This document shows, piece by piece, positions 34,300 through 41,768 of a stretch of 64,000 nucleotides of DNA. How positions within the stretch are numbered: the first letter of the stretch is position 1; the number at the start of each line of letters is the position of its first letter. The position numbers and the translations under genes are program-made. Below the pieces are notes generated by a model. It worked only from the letters and a program-made list of their open reading frames with translations. It was not told the DNA's origin and ran no database searches. This DNA comes from Paragorgia papillata (lineage: Eukaryota; Cnidaria; Anthozoa; Scleralcyonacea; Coralliidae), in contig JAWNZC010000351.1 in the NCBI GenBank assembly GCA_035771165.1, forward strand, positions 9,259,501-9,323,500, read 5' to 3'.

Positions 34300-34925
34300 T
34301 GCCAACCCCTGCTCAATTAATTGCAATTCCATACCCAAGATTAAAGATCGCGGGCTCTGAGTGCTTAGCGAGGAACGTGAAAATGACACCTCATTTCGAC
34401 ATTTTAGCTCATCTTGTCAATGTGGTATAATAATATAGATATAAACTAGAAGTTACTATCGCAAGGAAAGTGCTGCCTGAAGGACCAAATGGAGTCCTAA
34501 TATGCTACTGAAAAATTCTGGATATACTCTGATTTTATACTTATAGTATAGTACAGTAGGTCAACACCAGGGCCTGGCAGCCACGAACAGGAGTGGTGCA
34601 GTGCAGAGTCATGTTGCTTCAAGGTTGCTAGTAGCAGTAACTTTCACTTGCTAGGGTCAGAAGACCCACTTACTACATTTTTCTCAAATGACCTTCAGGC
34701 AGGAAAGATTAAACATTGAGAATTAAGATTTTCTGGTGCCGGCTATAGTAATAATTATACATATTTTTGATATATCAAATCAACAAACAGCCATGTACAT
34801 ATGCAGATAGATCAATGGGACAAAACAAATAGAAAATATATTTTTCTTTAAAAATAACAGGAACAATAACATGATTAATAGTTTGCAAGATGATAGTGTT
34901 CTGAATGTTAGACTACACAGTCAGC

Positions 34926-35275
34926 TATGAAGGCCCGTTCTGGTCAAAATTACTTTAATTATTTTTGTTGAACAAACAATTATTTTTTAGGCTGCGAGAT
35001 TTAATATTTAATAAATTAGCAATTATTTTTATCAGCTCGAAAATATTTTGTGATGTATTATAATTATTTTTATCAACTCTAATTAATATTATGTATTTTA
35101 ATTAATATTACGTGTCAGAATTAATATTATCTGTCAGAATTAATATTATGTGTCAGAATTAATATTATCTGTCAGAATTAGTATTATCTGTCAGAATTAA
35201 TATTACGTGTCAGAATTAATATTATGGTGTTTCGGAATTATCTGCCATATCCCAGAATACGTCGCGGTACTAGAG
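34926..35275 (+). repeat. Left TIR with subterminal 19-bp tandem repeats
   Basis: Matches the right arm (~41023-41473) in reverse complement through cccagaatac and gcggtactag. It contains about seven copies of the 19-bp unit, alternating tctgtcag and cgtgtcag variants. The tandem units are plausible transposase-binding sites. Confidence 0.88.
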
Positions 35276-35327
35276 TCATGTTAGACCAATGACATGAAGT
35301 ATTCGCTATTGAAACACTAAATGGCCG

Positions 35328-36889
35328 ATGGCAAGTCGACGTGGAAGAGTTTTTCGTGAGAGAAATGAGCGTGGGTTTTCTCTTTTTATTCAAAATTTAA
35401 AGGGCGTCATCAGCTTATTCTTGTTTAACAATGATACTCAGCTAAGAACGGAGTCTTTAATCGAGGCAAGACAACGATTACTAGATGCATCAGGGACTTT
35501 GTCGTTCTTGGTTAATGACTTGGCTTCTGGTGCACCCAATCCTACTGGAATACCAACGCATGCTATCCAGGAACCGCTGCAAGTTCTGAGGAATTCTTTG
35601 ACGCAACTGATTAACATAGTTTCTTCTTTGGTCGAAAATAGCCCTGATTCTGACTATTTTGACAACCTTGATGTCGCTTACGCTGCGCCGACCGTGATAC
35701 AGCAAGGTCAAGGACCAGGCCGTAAACGATTTGACATATCGAAAGATCAGCTGGAACACTTAAGGTCTCTGTTTTTCTCGTGGCAAAAAATTGCTAGTCT
35801 CCTTCATGTGAGCATTTCCACCCTGCAACGTCGAAGAAAAGAGTTTAATCTCACTGATGAATTTGAGAACTATTCAGATATATCGGACAATGAATTAGAC
35901 CAAATTTATGCAAGCATTGTCGGACGTCCAAACGAAGGGCCATCCACACCGAATATAGGAAGAAGAAGACTCATTGGGGCCTTGAGAAGTAGGGGCTTGC
36001 GTGTGCAAAGGTGGAGAATTAGTGACTGTCTGCATCGTGTGGACCCAGTTGGAACTGCTTTGCGCTGGCGAATGGCTATACACCGCAGGAAATATTTTGT
36101 TCCAATGCCAAATAGCCTGTGGCATATAGACTCTGGGCATAAATTGGTCAGATATAAACTAGTTACTCATGTGTGCGTTGATGGAAAGACCAGGGCAATG
36201 TTGTATGTCTCCTGCTGTAACAACAACAAGGCTGATACTGTACTTGGCTTATTTAAACATGCTGTTCAGAAATGGGGACTACCATCACGTGTTCGATGTG
36301 ACCATGGTATGGAGAACTATTATGTTGGGGCATATATGATAGAGCAACGGGGTGCAGAAAGGGGAAGTATTATCACTGGATCATCAGTCCATAATTCAAG
36401 AGTCGAGAGGTCTCATCGTGATATATATTCAGGAGTGCTAGTTTTTTATGCACGCATATTTGAAGAACTAGAAGATGATGGTGTCCTGGATGTTTTGGAT
36501 GATGTCCACATGTACAGCTTACATCATGTTTACATTCCTCGCATAATAACTCGTTAGAGGAATTTGTGAATCAAATTAATAATCGTCCAGTTTCCACTGA
36601 ACGAAACCAATCCCCATTGCAAATGTGGGAAAAGGGAATGTTAGAGAACATTCACTCTGGACATACTGCCCTCTCACCAGCAGAAATCGAGGACTTGGGA
36701 GTGGATCCAAATGGTGTATTAACAATTGAGGAGGAGGATTATCAAGTCAATGTGTCACCTCCATCAGTTGAATTGTCTGGTGAAGAAATCCAGCAGCTCC
36801 CTGACCCTGTCTTAAATGATGAAAATCGTGGTAAAACTATCTTTTGTCAAACAGTTGATATGATTGATGGATTTTTGAACTCTGTATAA
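35328..36889 (+). pseudogene. Integrase-type (rve/DDE) transposase, single frameshift
   Basis: The first 409 codons hold an N-terminal helical region, a helix-turn-helix at about residues 145-172 (SWQKIASLLHVSISTLQRRR), and an rve-type catalytic core. Catalytic acidic residues are D268 (WHIDSGHK), D325 (RCDHGMEN) and E360 (NSRVERSHRD), with 34 residues between the second D and the E, the spacing of the retroviral integrase/IS3 class. At ~36545 one A seems missing from an ataaataac-type word. The frame then stops at TAG 36555-36557, while the next frame continues without a break (EFVNQINNRPVSTERNQSPL) to a TAA at 36887. The intact product would be about 515 residues. The single lesion indicates recent decay. 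Confidence 0.9.
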
Positions 36890-38959
36890 CAGACAGCAAA
36901 AAATTAAACTGATACTAATAACTGTAAGTTATACTGTACCATAAACAAAATTGTGCAGCAAGTATTACATTATAGATGAGTATAATAATAAACTTTAATG
37001 AGTAACATGTCATGAATATTAATGATGAGACTAGCTTTCTGTAGTCTAATACTGGTACCAGTGTTTTGAATACAGTACTTGCCAACAAAGTCATATGATT
37101 GCAACAGATATGAAAATACCACAATGAGCTGCTTATAATATTTGGTGTACACAATCTATAATACTACATGCAGCTGTCAACCTCTGGTTTTGGTGTTCCT
37201 ATGGGGGAGGGAATTAAATGTAAAGAGAACAAAAAGTAAATCTCTCAAGGGTCATGCACAGAGCCACAGAGGGGGGGGGGGGGGGGGGGGGGCTAGGGGG
37301 CAAGTTGCCCAGGCCCCCAACTGGAGAAAGGCCCCCTAAGATTTTTGATATTGATTTTTTGACATAAGAAATAAGCCCAGAAAGCGTAAAGATCAGTAAC
37401 ACTAATTTCATTTTTAGCCAACCCAGGGGACCAATTGAGACCTTATGATGTGTGCATCGACCCATGCATGTAATGTCATCAGGTGCTTAAATCAATAATT
37501 TGCCCTGGACCCCACAATTTCTCTCAGTGGCCCTGGTCATACATGGAGAGAAGAACATTCCCAGCATTGAAAACTAGCACAGAACTAGAGTGGTTGTTAT
37601 GGCAAAAAGTGGCTGATTAATGAAAATTCTATAACTTAAAAAAAAAAAAGCAAAAAGATGTTTTCAAAAAAACATATTCAAAGTAGTCTATTTATTACCC
37701 ACTCATCCATTAAAGTTTTAATGAAAAAAGGAAATTGGGGCTACCTTTTTCAAAATAAATTAGATTGAAGGGTAATTATCAAACAATTGATAATTGTTGC
37801 TATAGCAACCACTTTAATTTGGTTGCATAACATTCAGTTTTATTCCAAAATATTTATGCACATTGTATCAGGTCTTCCTAGATGGTCAAAAGATATCCCT
37901 CTGTTATTTTACTGTCTAACACCAGATGATTTTACTCATCAAGTGAAAGCCACTGACCAGGAGGAAAGGGTTATGTTAGAATATGTGCTCTGATATTCCA
38001 ACAAGGTGATTAACACCTGATGAAACATGTGTAGCAGATTTAGCTAAAATAAATTGTATTAGTTATGAGATAAGAACACTCGGAAATGCATGACACGCAT
38101 TCCGATATACATGTAAGTAGCATAACTTTATATCCTGTAGTAATTATACCGGTAGTCCTTTTATGGAAGTCTTAATATAAAATCCTTGTACATATATATG
38201 ATTGAAATATACAAAATAAAGTCAGTTGTGACTCCTGAATAGAAGTTGTGTATTGCGCTTCGTATCAAGAAAGAGCGATGGCAACAGCACAAAACCCAAC
38301 AGGTTAAACTTGTATTTTCCACTTTTCAAGAAACTGTATGGTGCCACCTTAATAGAACATAAGAAAAACAAAGCACAGTAGCAATTCTGTAATGAAAATG
38401 ATTGCCTCAGGAAAGATTGGACTTCACCTCAGGGCTCAGCCTCACAAGCACAGTATAATTATAAACATCACCATTAATTTTACAAACTTTCCAAAAATAG
38501 AACAATGTTTAACCATTAAATGATTAATATAAAGGAATTTAAGGAATAGGCAGGCTGCCACCCATTCTGCAGAATAAAACCATCTGGCCAAGAAATTTTT
38601 CTCACTTTAATATTTTTAATTCAACATTTTATACAATGAATATACTCAACATGCACCAACTTGTTATCATGTTTATATAATTAGAATTACTTTATATAAG
38701 TACACAAGTTATGAATTCTTACTAACATCTTAGAATCATTGTCAAAATGGCAGAGTTCACCTGTAACACTTATCACAACTCATGTGTTTAAAGATGTTTT
38801 CAAAGCAATTAAATTACAATTTTAACAGGAACTATATATAAAAATACCATGAATGTAAACGTAATATCCATAACAAAAATGTATCTACCAAGATCATAAA
38901 TATGATACACTGTAGTAATAAAGTGTCAACAGACAACAGTAATAACAGTAATTGTAACA
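36890..38959. other. Non-coding spacer between convergent transposon genes
   Basis: About 2 kb without a supported gene. It holds a 27-bp poly-G tract (37266-37292) with hAT-like debris, and a TTAA-MITE core in reverse orientation at ~37901-37945 (ctaacaccagatgattttac). Confidence 0.55.
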
Positions 38960-40951
38960 TTAATCCTTACCAAAGTATGACTGTGAGAATGCTAGGTCAT
39001 ATAAAGCAAACAACCTTTCTTGTGTGGGCAATGGAAACTGATTGGTGGCTCTCGGTAGCTCTAACAGATTCCCACAAGTGTGAGCTAAAGGCACAAACCC
39101 TGGGACAACAGATTCTTCTTTTTCACTTGAATTTGCTACTTTAGTTTCAGAGGGCAGGATGAAATGAATGGAAGGAGCCATGCAAAACCCAAGCACTGGT
39201 TCTTCTGAGGCACCTGTTACAAATTCAAGAATGTTGTCTAACACTATGCACTTCTGTCCACATGATCTTCTGCCTCCTCCAACTTCCCTTACATAGGTAA
39301 CAAACTTGTGATAGGTTTCTTTCTCTTGCTTTTGGGCATTGCTTCCTTCCTCGGAAAACTTTGGCTTCAGGATTTGTAAAAGCTTCTGCACATTGACCTT
39401 TTTTTGGGCATTTGGTCTCAAGACATGGACCAGCATAGGTAGTTGCTGGAGGGCAGAGAGTATACCCAGTACTTGCAGACCTCGGCATAATTCAGTAATA
39501 CAGGGATTACATGTAGGACTCTTGGTTGTAGAAATTACCTCTTCTAAAATATCTTCTCCAAGAAAAGCTGGCATCTGGCCATTCTGTAGCATGGCTATGG
39601 CAATCATTATGCCAACATGGAAATAATCATTGGCAAGAAATGACCGCAATCCATTGTCAAAATACTTTTCCTTGATTGCTTGATTCATAAGCCGGATCCA
39701 TTCTTTGCGAGGGCCACCCAAATCTACTGATTCTTCTCCCATGAAGTCTACCTGGAATGTCTTCGTAAAGTCATCAATAAATTGAAACTCACTGAATGTT
39801 GTTTCCATAATGTTATCCCTGTCCACAGTAATGCAATTTGTGTCTCCATCAATGGTTTCCTCATGACTAGCGACATCAAGCATTCTTCCAGAGACAATTT
39901 CCTGTTGCAGAAACCTTATGACTTCAATTGGATGGATTAGATTCAAACGTTTTGCAGTATTGATTATTGACTGAATGTCAATAAGGCACTTTAACTGGGT
40001 GGGGTTTGAGGAAGGTACATCAGACACAGGCAACTCATGAGTAGATTCTGCAGGGATACCATCATCAACATTAGGGATAGTTCCTGAGCTAGTTCCTGAA
40101 CTGAGTAGAGTGAGAGATGATGGTTCAGCAGGGACTGTGAAGTCACAGTTTATATCATTGGTACTGTTGGTAAGATCTACAACTTCACTGGTATTTACAT
40201 TGGTAACTAGAACCACTGGAGGCATAGTAGATGTTGGTAAAATAAAAATATCAGTATGTTCTGACACCTGGCTGAGGTCATCTTCTGGAAACATGTCATC
40301 AGCAGGTTCACGTTTGGGTTCATACAACGGCCGCAAATATATGCAGCCAGAAGGTGCAATAGACTTAAGCAAAAGTTTGGCATCTATCTTCTTACCGGTT
40401 GGGATGTTCGGTCGTAATAATGTACCAGAGGAGTTTTTCATAATTTCAAAGCCGACTCCTTCTAAAGAACCACGAAGCAAGGTTGCTAATTCTTTTTCCA
40501 ACAGTTGGGCATCCCAATACCGATTTATATCAAATCCGGTAATGACTCTTCCATTTTTCTCCAGTTCGACTTTTTCAGTTTTCGTAGGTATTCGGTCACT
40601 CGCCATTTTAACCACGACAACATCTCGTGTTACGGTGTCAGGTGCCAATGGTCGACCAGCCGATCGTGAACGTCTGGTATTGTTCTGCGGAGCTGGATAG
40701 GGCCGCACTCGTGTACTTGTTGAAGTTGGTTGGTATCGCCCAGTAGTTGATCTTGATCTTTGTGCAGCAGCAGCAGCAGTAGGAAATCTTCTCTGCAATT
40801 CATTTAAACTAGAATTACCACTAGCAGGTACCGGAGAAACGTTAGCCCGTGGATTGTCGATCACCTTGGTAATTTCGTTGATACTATTGATTGCATTTTG
40901 TGCAATCTTTCTTAGCTCTTCTTTCATCGACGAGTCAATTTGGTCAGCCAT
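38960..40951 (-). CDS. Transposon-encoded HECT-type E3 ubiquitin ligase-like protein (intact, 663 aa)
   Basis: The ORF is uninterrupted, starting MADQIDSSMKEELRK at 40951. It has an N-terminal coil and a basic Ser/Arg-rich linker (residues ~60-105), a conserved middle region (residues ~115-215) and an acidic linker. The HECT-like C-terminus covers about 394-663. It begins FQVDFMGEESVDLGGPRKEW (the VxFxGExGxDxGGxxREF signature of HECT N-lobes) and ends with EFVTGASEEPVLGF and PLAHTCGNLLELPR. Cys626 sits where HECT ligases have the catalytic cysteine. At ~270 residues the domain is shorter than the usual ~350. The nearest known relatives by motif are G2E3-like proteins that are numerous in cnidarian and fish genomes. 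In HECT enzymes ubiquitin is passed from an E2 to this cysteine. Activity here is inferred. Confidence 0.88.
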   Translation of the reverse strand: MADQIDSSMKEELRKIAQNAINSINEITKVIDNPRANVSPVPASGNSSLNELQRRFPTAAAAAQRSRSTTGRYQPTSTSTRVRPYPAPQNNTRRSRSAGRPLAPDTVTRDVVVVKMASDRIPTKTEKVELEKNGRVITGFDINRYWDAQLLEKELATLLRGSLEGVGFEIMKNSSGTLLRPNIPTGKKIDAKLLLKSIAPSGCIYLRPLYEPKREPADDMFPEDDLSQVSEHTDIFILPTSTMPPVVLVTNVNTSEVVDLTNSTNDINCDFTVPAEPSSLTLLSSGTSSGTIPNVDDGIPAESTHELPVSDVPSSNPTQLKCLIDIQSIINTAKRLNLIHPIEVIRFLQQEIVSGRMLDVASHEETIDGDTNCITVDRDNIMETTFSEFQFIDDFTKTFQVDFMGEESVDLGGPRKEWIRLMNQAIKEKYFDNGLRSFLANDYFHVGIMIAIAMLQNGQMPAFLGEDILEEVISTTKSPTCNPCITELCRGLQVLGILSALQQLPMLVHVLRPNAQKKVNVQKLLQILKPKFSEEGSNAQKQEKETYHKFVTYVREVGGGRRSCGQKCIVLDNILEFVTGASEEPVLGFCMAPSIHFILPSETKVANSSEKEESVVPGFVPLAHTCGNLLELPRATNQFPLPTQERLFALYDLAFSQSYFGKD

Positions 40952-41022
40952 GTTTTTTTCGGGCGCCCAAAAACGCGGTAAGTAGTAAGTACTTCATGTT
41001 ATGGGATATAATGGATCAAACC

Positions 41023-41473
41023 TAATCCTAGTACCGCAAAGTATTCTGGGATATGGCAGATAATTCCGAAACACCATAATATTAATTCTGACAGATAATA
41101 TTAATTCTGACAGATAATATTAATTCTGACACGTAATATTAATTCTGACAGATAATATTAATTCTGACAGATAATATTAATTCTGACACGTAATATTAAT
41201 TCTGACAGATAATATTAATTCTGACAGATAATATTAATTCTGACAGATAATATTAATTCTGACACGTAATATTAATTAAAATACATAATATTAATTAGAG
41301 TTGATAAAAATAATTATAATACATCACAAAATATTTTCGAGCTGATAAAAATAATTGTGATATATCACAAAAATAATTGCTAATTTATTAAATATTAAAT
41401 GTCACAACCTAAAAAATAATTGTTTGTTCAACAAAAATAATTAAAGTAATTTTGACCAGAACGGGCCTTCATA
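41023..41473 (-). repeat. Right TIR with subterminal 19-bp tandem repeats
   Basis: Inverse partner of 34926-35275. It has more copies of the 19-bp unit than the left arm (about ten), so the arrays expand or contract independently. Confidence 0.88.
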
Positions 41474-41474
41474 G

Positions 41475-41768
41475 TCAGCAGTTCCAGGGCGAAATATTTG
41501 TCTCAATGGATAAAGAAACAACAGTTGGTAAGTTGTTCAACGACAACAATTCTTCACGTGGGATGAGACCATTGTTGTAGGCATTCAGGTACATCGTGTC
41601 TCCTTCAACTAAGACATGGTCGATGATTGTCGAGTCCCATTCATCGAGTGAAATAGCTTGTGCTGTCAACAGCGCTGATAAACTCATGAAAGAGCACTGC
41701 TTTCCTCGAGAATCGCCACTGAAACGTTCATGGCCTTGATGAATACTTCCCCGTGAAAGTAAAGACAT
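41475..41768 (-). CDS. Fragment resembling a C76/herpes-tegument-type cysteine protease
   Basis: The minus-strand frame begins MSLLSRGSIHQGHERF and continues GKQCSFMSLSALL, then IIDHVLVEGDTMYLN. The pattern HQG.xRF...GxQC...L.AL...D.vL.xGD.lY recalls the N-terminal DUB/peptidase region related to C76 (herpesvirus tegument protease) found in some cnidarian mobile elements. The cysteine in GKQC would be catalytic. The frame stops at the boundary of the HECT/integrase transposon, and the other side (left of 34920) shows no continuing frame. It is probably a remnant or a gene cut by the insertion. Confidence 0.4.
   Translation of the reverse strand: MSLLSRGSIHQGHERFSGDSRGKQCSFMSLSALLTAQAISLDEWDSTIIDHVLVEGDTMYLNAYNNGLIPREELLSLNNLPTVVSLSIETNISPWNC

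Follow-up and report, generated by a model that had tools for sequence, protein, structure and literature searches.

Convergent transposase and HECT-domain genes in an IS3EU/GingerRoot-like DNA transposon of Paragorgia papillata

Introduction

Does a gene of the ubiquitin-ligase type that is carried by a DNA transposon travel as cargo, or does it belong to the equipment of the element? The question is raised by a 64,000-nucleotide stretch of the genome of Paragorgia papillata (contig JAWNZC010000351.1, positions 9,259,501 to 9,323,500 of the forward strand), hereafter called the window. Its positions 34926–41473 are occupied by a transposon that is complete by its ends, and in which a transposase gene (+) and a gene for a HECT-domain protein (−) converge. 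An initial annotation left it undecided whether the HECT gene is cargo or a second component. Most of the sampled related transposons of the same genome hold the pair, which suggests that the second gene is part of the transposon machinery; in this genome, the elements seem to have it regularly as their second component, and the cargo half of the proposal loses ground. We think it quite probable that the locus is a copy of a cut-and-paste transposon of the IS3EU/GingerRoot type with a two-gene plan, in which a DDE transposase is accompanied by a convergently encoded HECT-type protein acting as accessory factor.

Structure of the Element and Its Transposase Gene

The ends of the element are marked by terminal inverted repeats (TIRs), TATGAAGGCCCG, and by a 6-bp target-site duplication (TSD), GTCAGC, at 34920–34925 and 41474–41479, both found where they had been annotated. 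Compared from the ends, the TIRs are identical at 12/12, 30/30, 50/50 and 102/105 positions. The arms are about 300 bp long and contain a 19-bp tandem array: the left one (34926–35225, +) joins the TATGAAGGCCCG terminus to its subterminal array, and the right one (41152–41473, −) was delimited by inverted-repeat and end comparison. Their complementarity is 97% over 106 nt (34925–35030 on the left side) and again 97% over 206 nt more (35020–35225). Tandem Repeats Finder reports 7.7 copies of the unit AATTAATATTATGTGTCAG at 35081–35226 (+) and 11.6 copies in the right array at 41076–41296 (−). The spacer between the genes harbors a nested 328-bp insertion (37974–38301) with GGTTA on both sides, which is missing from the copies C88, C187 and C86, all of them aligning contiguously across the site. 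A G-run in the spacer was considered as a conserved feature and dropped: of the seven G/C runs of at least 12 in the window, six do not belong to the element, and no run of that length occurs in 10 of the 15 related loci L031–L045.

ORF1 (35328–36557, +) encodes 409 residues with the N-terminal part and the catalytic core of the transposase. The integrase-fold assignment of the initial annotation, with D268, D325 and E360 and a D34E spacing, agrees with the sequence, in which 34 residues lie between D325 and E360, and the triad is conserved in 115, 106 and 110 of 120 rows, respectively (the 120 homologues listed of 397 found, rows with gaps included). The integrase core was recognized through PF24764, "Integrase core domain" (E 2.3e-58; 197.6 bits, cut-off 26), and not through the rve family PF00665 that had been suggested for checking it, whose score stays below the cut-off (E 4.7e-6; 27.2 bits against 32.6). 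An HTH-like stretch within ORF1 (residues 151–174, +) matches HTH_23 below cut-off (E 0.0076), and the Pfam scans gave no zinc-domain match to the transposase.

The remainder of the transposase lies in another frame at 36566–36889 (+), matching PF24764 positions 161–194 just below cut-off and positions 399–509 of the transposase profile. With this frame break near the 3′ end of the gene, the window copy is complete by its ends but broken in its transposase gene; the annotation as a complete transposon is therefore right for the boundaries and not for the coding content. This copy has probably lost the ability to make a full transposase, and it could still provide the HECT protein in trans. The transposase is a single open frame of 532 residues in the C88 copy, and one open frame in L031. 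With NCBIfam models, the open C88 transposase matches IS481 (E 3.6e-15) and IS3 (E 2.6e-5), both under the equivalog cut-offs.

Related Elements and Superfamily

Eight of 16 loci (the window and L031–L045) could be delimited at both ends, and all eight elements start with TATG and end with CATA, that is, they have TA...TA termini. The TSD is an exact 6-bp repeat in six of them, the window included, while it has 7 bp in L031 and matches at 5/6 positions in L039. Subterminal arrays with a period of 19–20 bp were present in all four elements checked for them (the window, L034, L035 and L042). Judged by sequence, the ends and the TSD agree with those of the IS3EU/GingerRoot superfamily, for which the available text of PMC10045372 gives TA..TA termini and, as a rule, 6-bp TSDs; an IS3/IS481-like DDE core without a zinc domain is a further likeness. 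The same text names neither HECT nor ubiquitin and does not mention subterminal arrays of 19–20 bp. Membership in IS481EU, with TSDs of about 4, 15 or 25 bp according to this source, is ruled out by the TSDs of 6–7 bp found here.

The HECT-Domain Protein

ORF2 (38960–40951, −) is an open frame of 663 residues with 75 homologues. The N-terminal part of the protein is largely disordered; the protein further has a small alpha/beta domain (residues 103–216; 40304–40645, −) and a C-terminal HECT-like domain (residues 374–663; 38963–39832, −). The small domain weakly matches a beta-grasp-like (ubiquitin-like/PB1-like) arrangement, and the fold search with it gave no significant match. Structural comparison of ORF2 found a HECT fold with N- and C-lobe, and the C-lobe and Cys626, whose joint absence would have spoken against the HECT assignment, are both predicted. 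The presumed catalytic cysteine, encoded at 39074–39076 (−), lies in an AHTC motif that aligns with those of AREL1 and HUWE1, and 33 rows have a cysteine at that position out of 34 that show a letter there, in an alignment of 40 (the window protein and 39 of the 75 homologues). The longer-domain HECT types of the same genome retain the cysteine too.

Fold and cysteine are thus as initially annotated, but the domain is short. Solved HECTs exceed it by about 70 residues. The missing stretch appears to belong to the N-lobe, a placement made by alignment only, in which the gap follows the GGP part of this lobe and precedes the C-lobe. Where the distance from GGP to TC is measurable (34 of 75 homologues), its median is 214.5, versus 281–285 in the HUWE1 and AREL1 alignments. 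Because of this shortening between the GGP motif and the cysteine, the domain may be inactive as a ligase. The recommended check with PF00632 had a divided outcome, the window protein scoring below the cut-off (19.9 bits against 23.9) and five of six scanned homologues above it (26.8–46.6 bits; P0049 below, with 16.5). AREL1, HUWE1, SMURF1/2 and UBR5 share with ORF2 the HECT fold, a GG(P)-type N-lobe motif and the AHTC cysteine, although identity in structural alignments is only 14–23%; besides its shorter domain, ORF2 differs from HECT E3 ligases in being transposon-encoded and in its N-terminal half. Viral contigs, scanned with the HECT alignment, yielded no relative.

Pairing of the Two Genes

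Among the matches listed, a convergent transposase lies no more than 8 kb away from 28 of 49 merged HECT loci, where 0.13 would be expected at random, and 31 of the 49 have a listed transposase within that distance in any orientation; many genome matches duplicate one another, so that these locus counts are not independent events. Nine of the 72 transposase loci without HECT among the matches listed were sampled, three by choice and six at random, and seven proved to have a more diverged HECT gene on the opposite strand. At L044 no HECT gene was seen and a hAT element is present, and at L043 there is a resemblance to HECT by eye only, with no Pfam match. Of three HECT loci without a listed transposase that were examined, two, which are probable duplicates, have a decayed convergent one, and L048 has none within 7.3 kb. 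Absence of one gene as a rule among other copies would have counted against the two-gene element as initially proposed; most sampled copies hold both.

The pairing in the sampled loci extends to three HECT types and to transposases 43–50% identical to that of the window, nearly always in convergent orientation. L034 and L035 are complete two-gene elements with both genes open and exact 6-bp TSDs, their transposases being 52–54% and their HECT proteins 31–33% identical to those of the window. A single TIR pair encloses both genes in the window element and in L031, L034, L035, L037, L039, L040 and L042. As far as sequence can tell, the boundaries, both genes, their convergent co-occurrence in many divergent copies, the catalytic residues and the arrays are established. 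Losses occur as well: the HECT gene has a stop in C88, where the transposase is open, and part of the HECT domain is gone in C187, C206 and C87, which are probably one duplicated locus in view of their common 14-base flank.

Between families, the frames are open at nonsynonymous divergences of up to 0.67 and with saturated synonymous sites. Within families, dN/dS is 0.26 and 0.57 for HECT and 0.29–0.98 for the transposase, values with few changes behind them. Close pairs recur in both gene trees, and the distances are correlated (Mantel r 0.50, p 0.0017 for 11 loci; 0.41, p 0.021 without the near-duplicate L036). The deep order differs, the HECT gene of the window group being placed with L040/L041 and its transposase with L037/L038. 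Strict ancient co-descent of the two genes is consequently not supported.

Possible Roles of the HECT-Domain Protein

A chance composite, in which an integrase transposon came to lie beside an unrelated HECT repeat, would account for two convergent genes of different origin and for a spacer with a nested insertion, but it is hardly credible: chance adjacency is ruled out by the 28 convergent pairs against 0.13 neighbors expected, and composite insertion by the single TIR pair around both genes in eight elements. It is also improbable, in our opinion, that the element captured a host HECT gene accidentally and multiplied it along with itself, the gene having no function in transposition. Transposons do acquire enzymes, the TET/JBP genes of fungal transposons, IS3EU included, being called passively transferred in the available text of PMC12730594, and the HECT gene is lost or broken in some copies; yet passive carriage accords poorly with a nearly always convergent pairing across such diverse HECT types and transposases, and with HECT frames that stay open between families despite saturated synonymous sites.

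Two-protein plant transposons offer a comparison for another alternative, which keeps the two-gene plan and changes the mode of action: the product would be a dead or weak HECT-like module, an accessory subunit that binds DNA or protein and no ligase. The apparently short N-lobe, the PF00632 score of the window protein and the subterminal arrays, which suggest a binding protein, speak for it. Retention of Cys626, also in the longer types, is unexpected in a pure scaffold, and we find this alternative rather unlikely, if worth keeping in mind.

For the preferred two-gene reading, the transposase would cut the TATG...CATA ends and insert the element with a 6-bp stagger. The period of the arrays comes close to two turns of DNA; they may serve as a docking platform for a DNA-binding protein encoded by the element, and the HECT protein could be the accessory factor that is drawn to the complex there. 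It might ubiquitinate the transposase or transpososome, leading to disassembly or copy-number control; host silencing or repair proteins are alternative candidate targets. The HECT product is likely an element-encoded accessory protein, and putative ligase, acting on the transpososome or on host factors. We hold a further idea only tentatively, leaning somewhat against it: in an animal DNA-transposon superfamily, a HECT ligase would be the second core component and long conserved as such. It would be recruited to the subterminal arrays, and transposition would need it for remodeling the transpososome or for clearing away silencing factors of the host, while lineages would have swapped HECT domains and conserved the N-terminal module.

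For some bacterial transpososomes, control is exerted through protein unfolding, and the present elements raise the question of whether an E3 controls transposition. If elements that have diverged so far do retain the HECT gene next to their transposase, this would be an unusual eukaryotic transposon with a ubiquitin-pathway enzyme as standard equipment. Our literature search, which did not extend to the original GingerRoot paper or Repbase, found no paper joining IS3EU and HECT. According to the available text of PMC12730594, the transposase of the TET+ IS3EU elements of rust and truffle fungi is likewise joined by a gene of opposite orientation, but that gene encodes an alpha-kinase and a TET/JBP dioxygenase lies between the two, whereas it has a HECT domain in the window element. 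Deubiquitinase Helitrons (VTD/OTU), as described in the available text of PMC9741609, are likewise transposons with a ubiquitin-system enzyme; in contrast to the ligase-type domain found here, they are rolling-circle elements with the deubiquitinase inside the Helitron's own frame.

In the annotations of corals and octocorals, some HECT-domain genes without a name could be transposon genes of this kind. The named ORF2 homologues come from corals, and two observations hint that other genomes have the pairing too: the two members of four HECT/transposase homologue pairs agree in the length of their longest contig, and consecutive gene numbers occur in the names of P0026/P0095 and of P0028/P0111.

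Structure of the window element

The transposon at window positions 34926–41473 (6,548 bp) pairs a transposase gene with a convergent HECT-domain gene, and its limits, which the initial annotation had placed at terminal inverted repeats and a GTCAGC duplication, are borne out. Its 5' terminus is TATGAAGGCCCG and its 3' terminus is the reverse complement of TATGAAGGCCCG; the first 50 positions are identical between termini, as are 102 of the first 105, beyond these the arms remain 97% complementary for another 206 nt, and GTCAGC stands at both flanks. A 19-bp tandem array lies on either side, with 7.7 copies in the left one and 11.6 in the right one. Apart from both genes and an antisense frame within the second, the 64-kb window contains no ORF of at least 170 aa. 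An insertion of 328 bp with GGTTA on its flanks is nested between both genes (37974–38301) and is absent from the copies on contigs C88, C187 and C86.

The proposed integrase-fold (rve) transposase is upheld by PF24764, which matches ORF1 (409 aa) with 197.6 bits against a cut-off of 26; rve itself (PF00665) also matches, under that model's cut-off. The predicted triad D268/D325/E360 is present in ORF1 and conserved among the 120 homologues listed of 397 found (D in 115, D in 106 and E in 110). Both ends of this copy are intact, but the transposase gene is interrupted near its 3' end, since the C-terminal part of the protein lies in another frame (36566–36889), whereas the C88 copy (L031) has one open frame of 532 aa; "complete" therefore holds for the ends only. 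The best NCBIfam model for this open frame is IS481 (E 3.6e-15), followed by IS3 (E 2.6e-5), both under equivalog cut-offs. The damage is complementary, the C88 copy having a stop in its HECT gene and the window copy an open one.

Pairing of both genes in the genome

The convergent transposase–HECT pair is the common plan of the elements sampled in the Paragorgia papillata genome, so that the association described in the initial annotation was right and is wider than claimed. The assembly to which the window belongs comprises 618 Mb in 473 contigs and yielded at least 76 HECT and at least 105 transposase matches; these are lower bounds because scoring covered only 67 of 648 first-look candidates for HECT and 102 of 1,295 for the transposase. 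Merging those listed on the same strand and at most 4 kb apart gave at least 49 HECT and at least 100 transposase loci. A listed transposase is found within 8 kb of 31 of the 49 listed HECT loci (28 convergent, 2 divergent, 1 tandem), against 0.13 neighbours expected under random placement.

Among the listed transposase loci, 28 of 100 have a listed HECT and 72 do not. Nine of these 72 were sampled, three for their long open frames (L037–L039) and six at random (L040–L045), and seven (L037–L042, L045) carry a convergent HECT domain on the opposite strand; absence of one gene is thus not the rule. The PF00632 cut-off (23.9) is exceeded by five of these domains; those of L038 (17.5 bits) and L042 (23.7) are under it and are matched by the profile of a second HECT type, with E 1.8e-122 for L038 and 1.2e-165 for L042, values that come from a small set of frames. 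Opposite the transposase of L043 no Pfam match was obtained (threshold 0.1); a stretch on the minus strand (L043:6952–7506) resembles the HECT N-lobe by its DTGGLSRQYF motif only, and may represent an additional, intron-containing HECT type. L044 has no HECT there, the place being occupied by a hAT element (687-aa ORF with Dimer_Tnp_hAT, minus strand, L044:1419–3479) downstream of the IS3EU-type transposase. Of three HECT loci examined that lack a listed transposase, two, probably duplicates of each other, have a decayed convergent one, and the third has none inside 7.3 kb.

Duplication among loci is frequent: one 14-base flank is common to C187, C206 and C87, and three C327 copies likewise have a flank in common. 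The latter, near 590, 855 and 1,091 kb, are damaged and related, with an identical flank at the end seen, and are probably a segmental duplication, not separate insertions.

In other genomes the pairing can be inferred from gene names and matching contig sizes rather than contig sequence. Two HECT/transposase pairs among EukProt entries have consecutive gene numbers (gene8538/gene8539, gene1054/gene1053), and in four HECT/transposase homologue pairs, one from Stylophora pistillata, the longest contigs are equal in size (a length was given for 71 HECT and 115 transposase entries). Names of further transposase relatives include an acorn worm and a sea squirt; those of the second HECT type include Dendronephthya, Paramuricea, Xenia, Hydractinia and Montipora.

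Diversity and constraint

Among 16 loci, the window element and L031–L045, both ends could be delimited for eight (the window element, L031, L034, L035, L037, L039, L040 and L042). All eight start with TATG and end with CATA, with 29–30 of 30 terminal bases matching. The duplication is an exact 6-mer in six, a 7-mer in L031 and 5/6 in L039. Of such full-length copies, for which the initial annotation suggested a search, L034 and L035 have both genes open at only 31–33% (HECT) and 52–54% (transposase) identity to those of the window element. Subterminal arrays of period 19–20 recur, with differing sequences, in all three other elements checked (L034, L035, L042).

Between families, nonsynonymous divergence reaches 0.67 and synonymous sites are saturated. 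Within families, dN/dS is 0.26 (window/L031, 17 changes) and 0.57 (L034/L036) for HECT and 0.29 to 0.98 for the transposase, all from small numbers. Read in this way, the substitutions show that the genes are constrained between families, whereas inside a single family they show it only weakly.

The N-terminal half of ORF2, the HECT gene, is identifiable in L037, L039 and L042, three loci with a different type of HECT domain. The nearest relatives are the same in the trees of both genes, and pairwise distances are correlated between them (Mantel r 0.50, p 0.0017, 11 loci), but the deeper order is discordant. One old two-gene plan, with a HECT domain strongly diverged or exchanged, fits these data; strict co-descent is not proven.

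Known systems and possible role

IS3EU/GingerRoot elements are described in PMC10045372 as having TA..TA termini and usually 6-bp duplications, which the window element and the other delimited elements fit; the word HECT is absent from the text of that paper. In the TET+ IS3EU elements of fungi, as described in PMC12730594, an alpha-kinase gene is opposite in orientation to the transposase, with a TET/JBP gene in between; the arrangement is similar to that seen here, but the partner gene differs. No paper joining "IS3EU" and "HECT" was found in the literature searched, and novelty is relative to that literature because Repbase entries, which perhaps annotate such an ORF, lay outside it. We favor reading the HECT protein as a putative accessory factor in transposition, derived from a ubiquitin ligase, for which the key question is whether the short HECT type has kept the ability to transfer ubiquitin.

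Deubiquitinases encoded by a transposon are described for Helitrons (PMC9741609). Adjoining the insertion site of the window element, a 97-aa ORF on the minus strand (41475–41768) matches PF04843 Herpes_teg_N (E 3.2e-5; 24.1 bits, slightly under the cut-off of 25), a deubiquitinase domain of the tegument type that has been reported from transposons as well, and the element may have inserted within or next to a deubiquitinase gene of another transposon.
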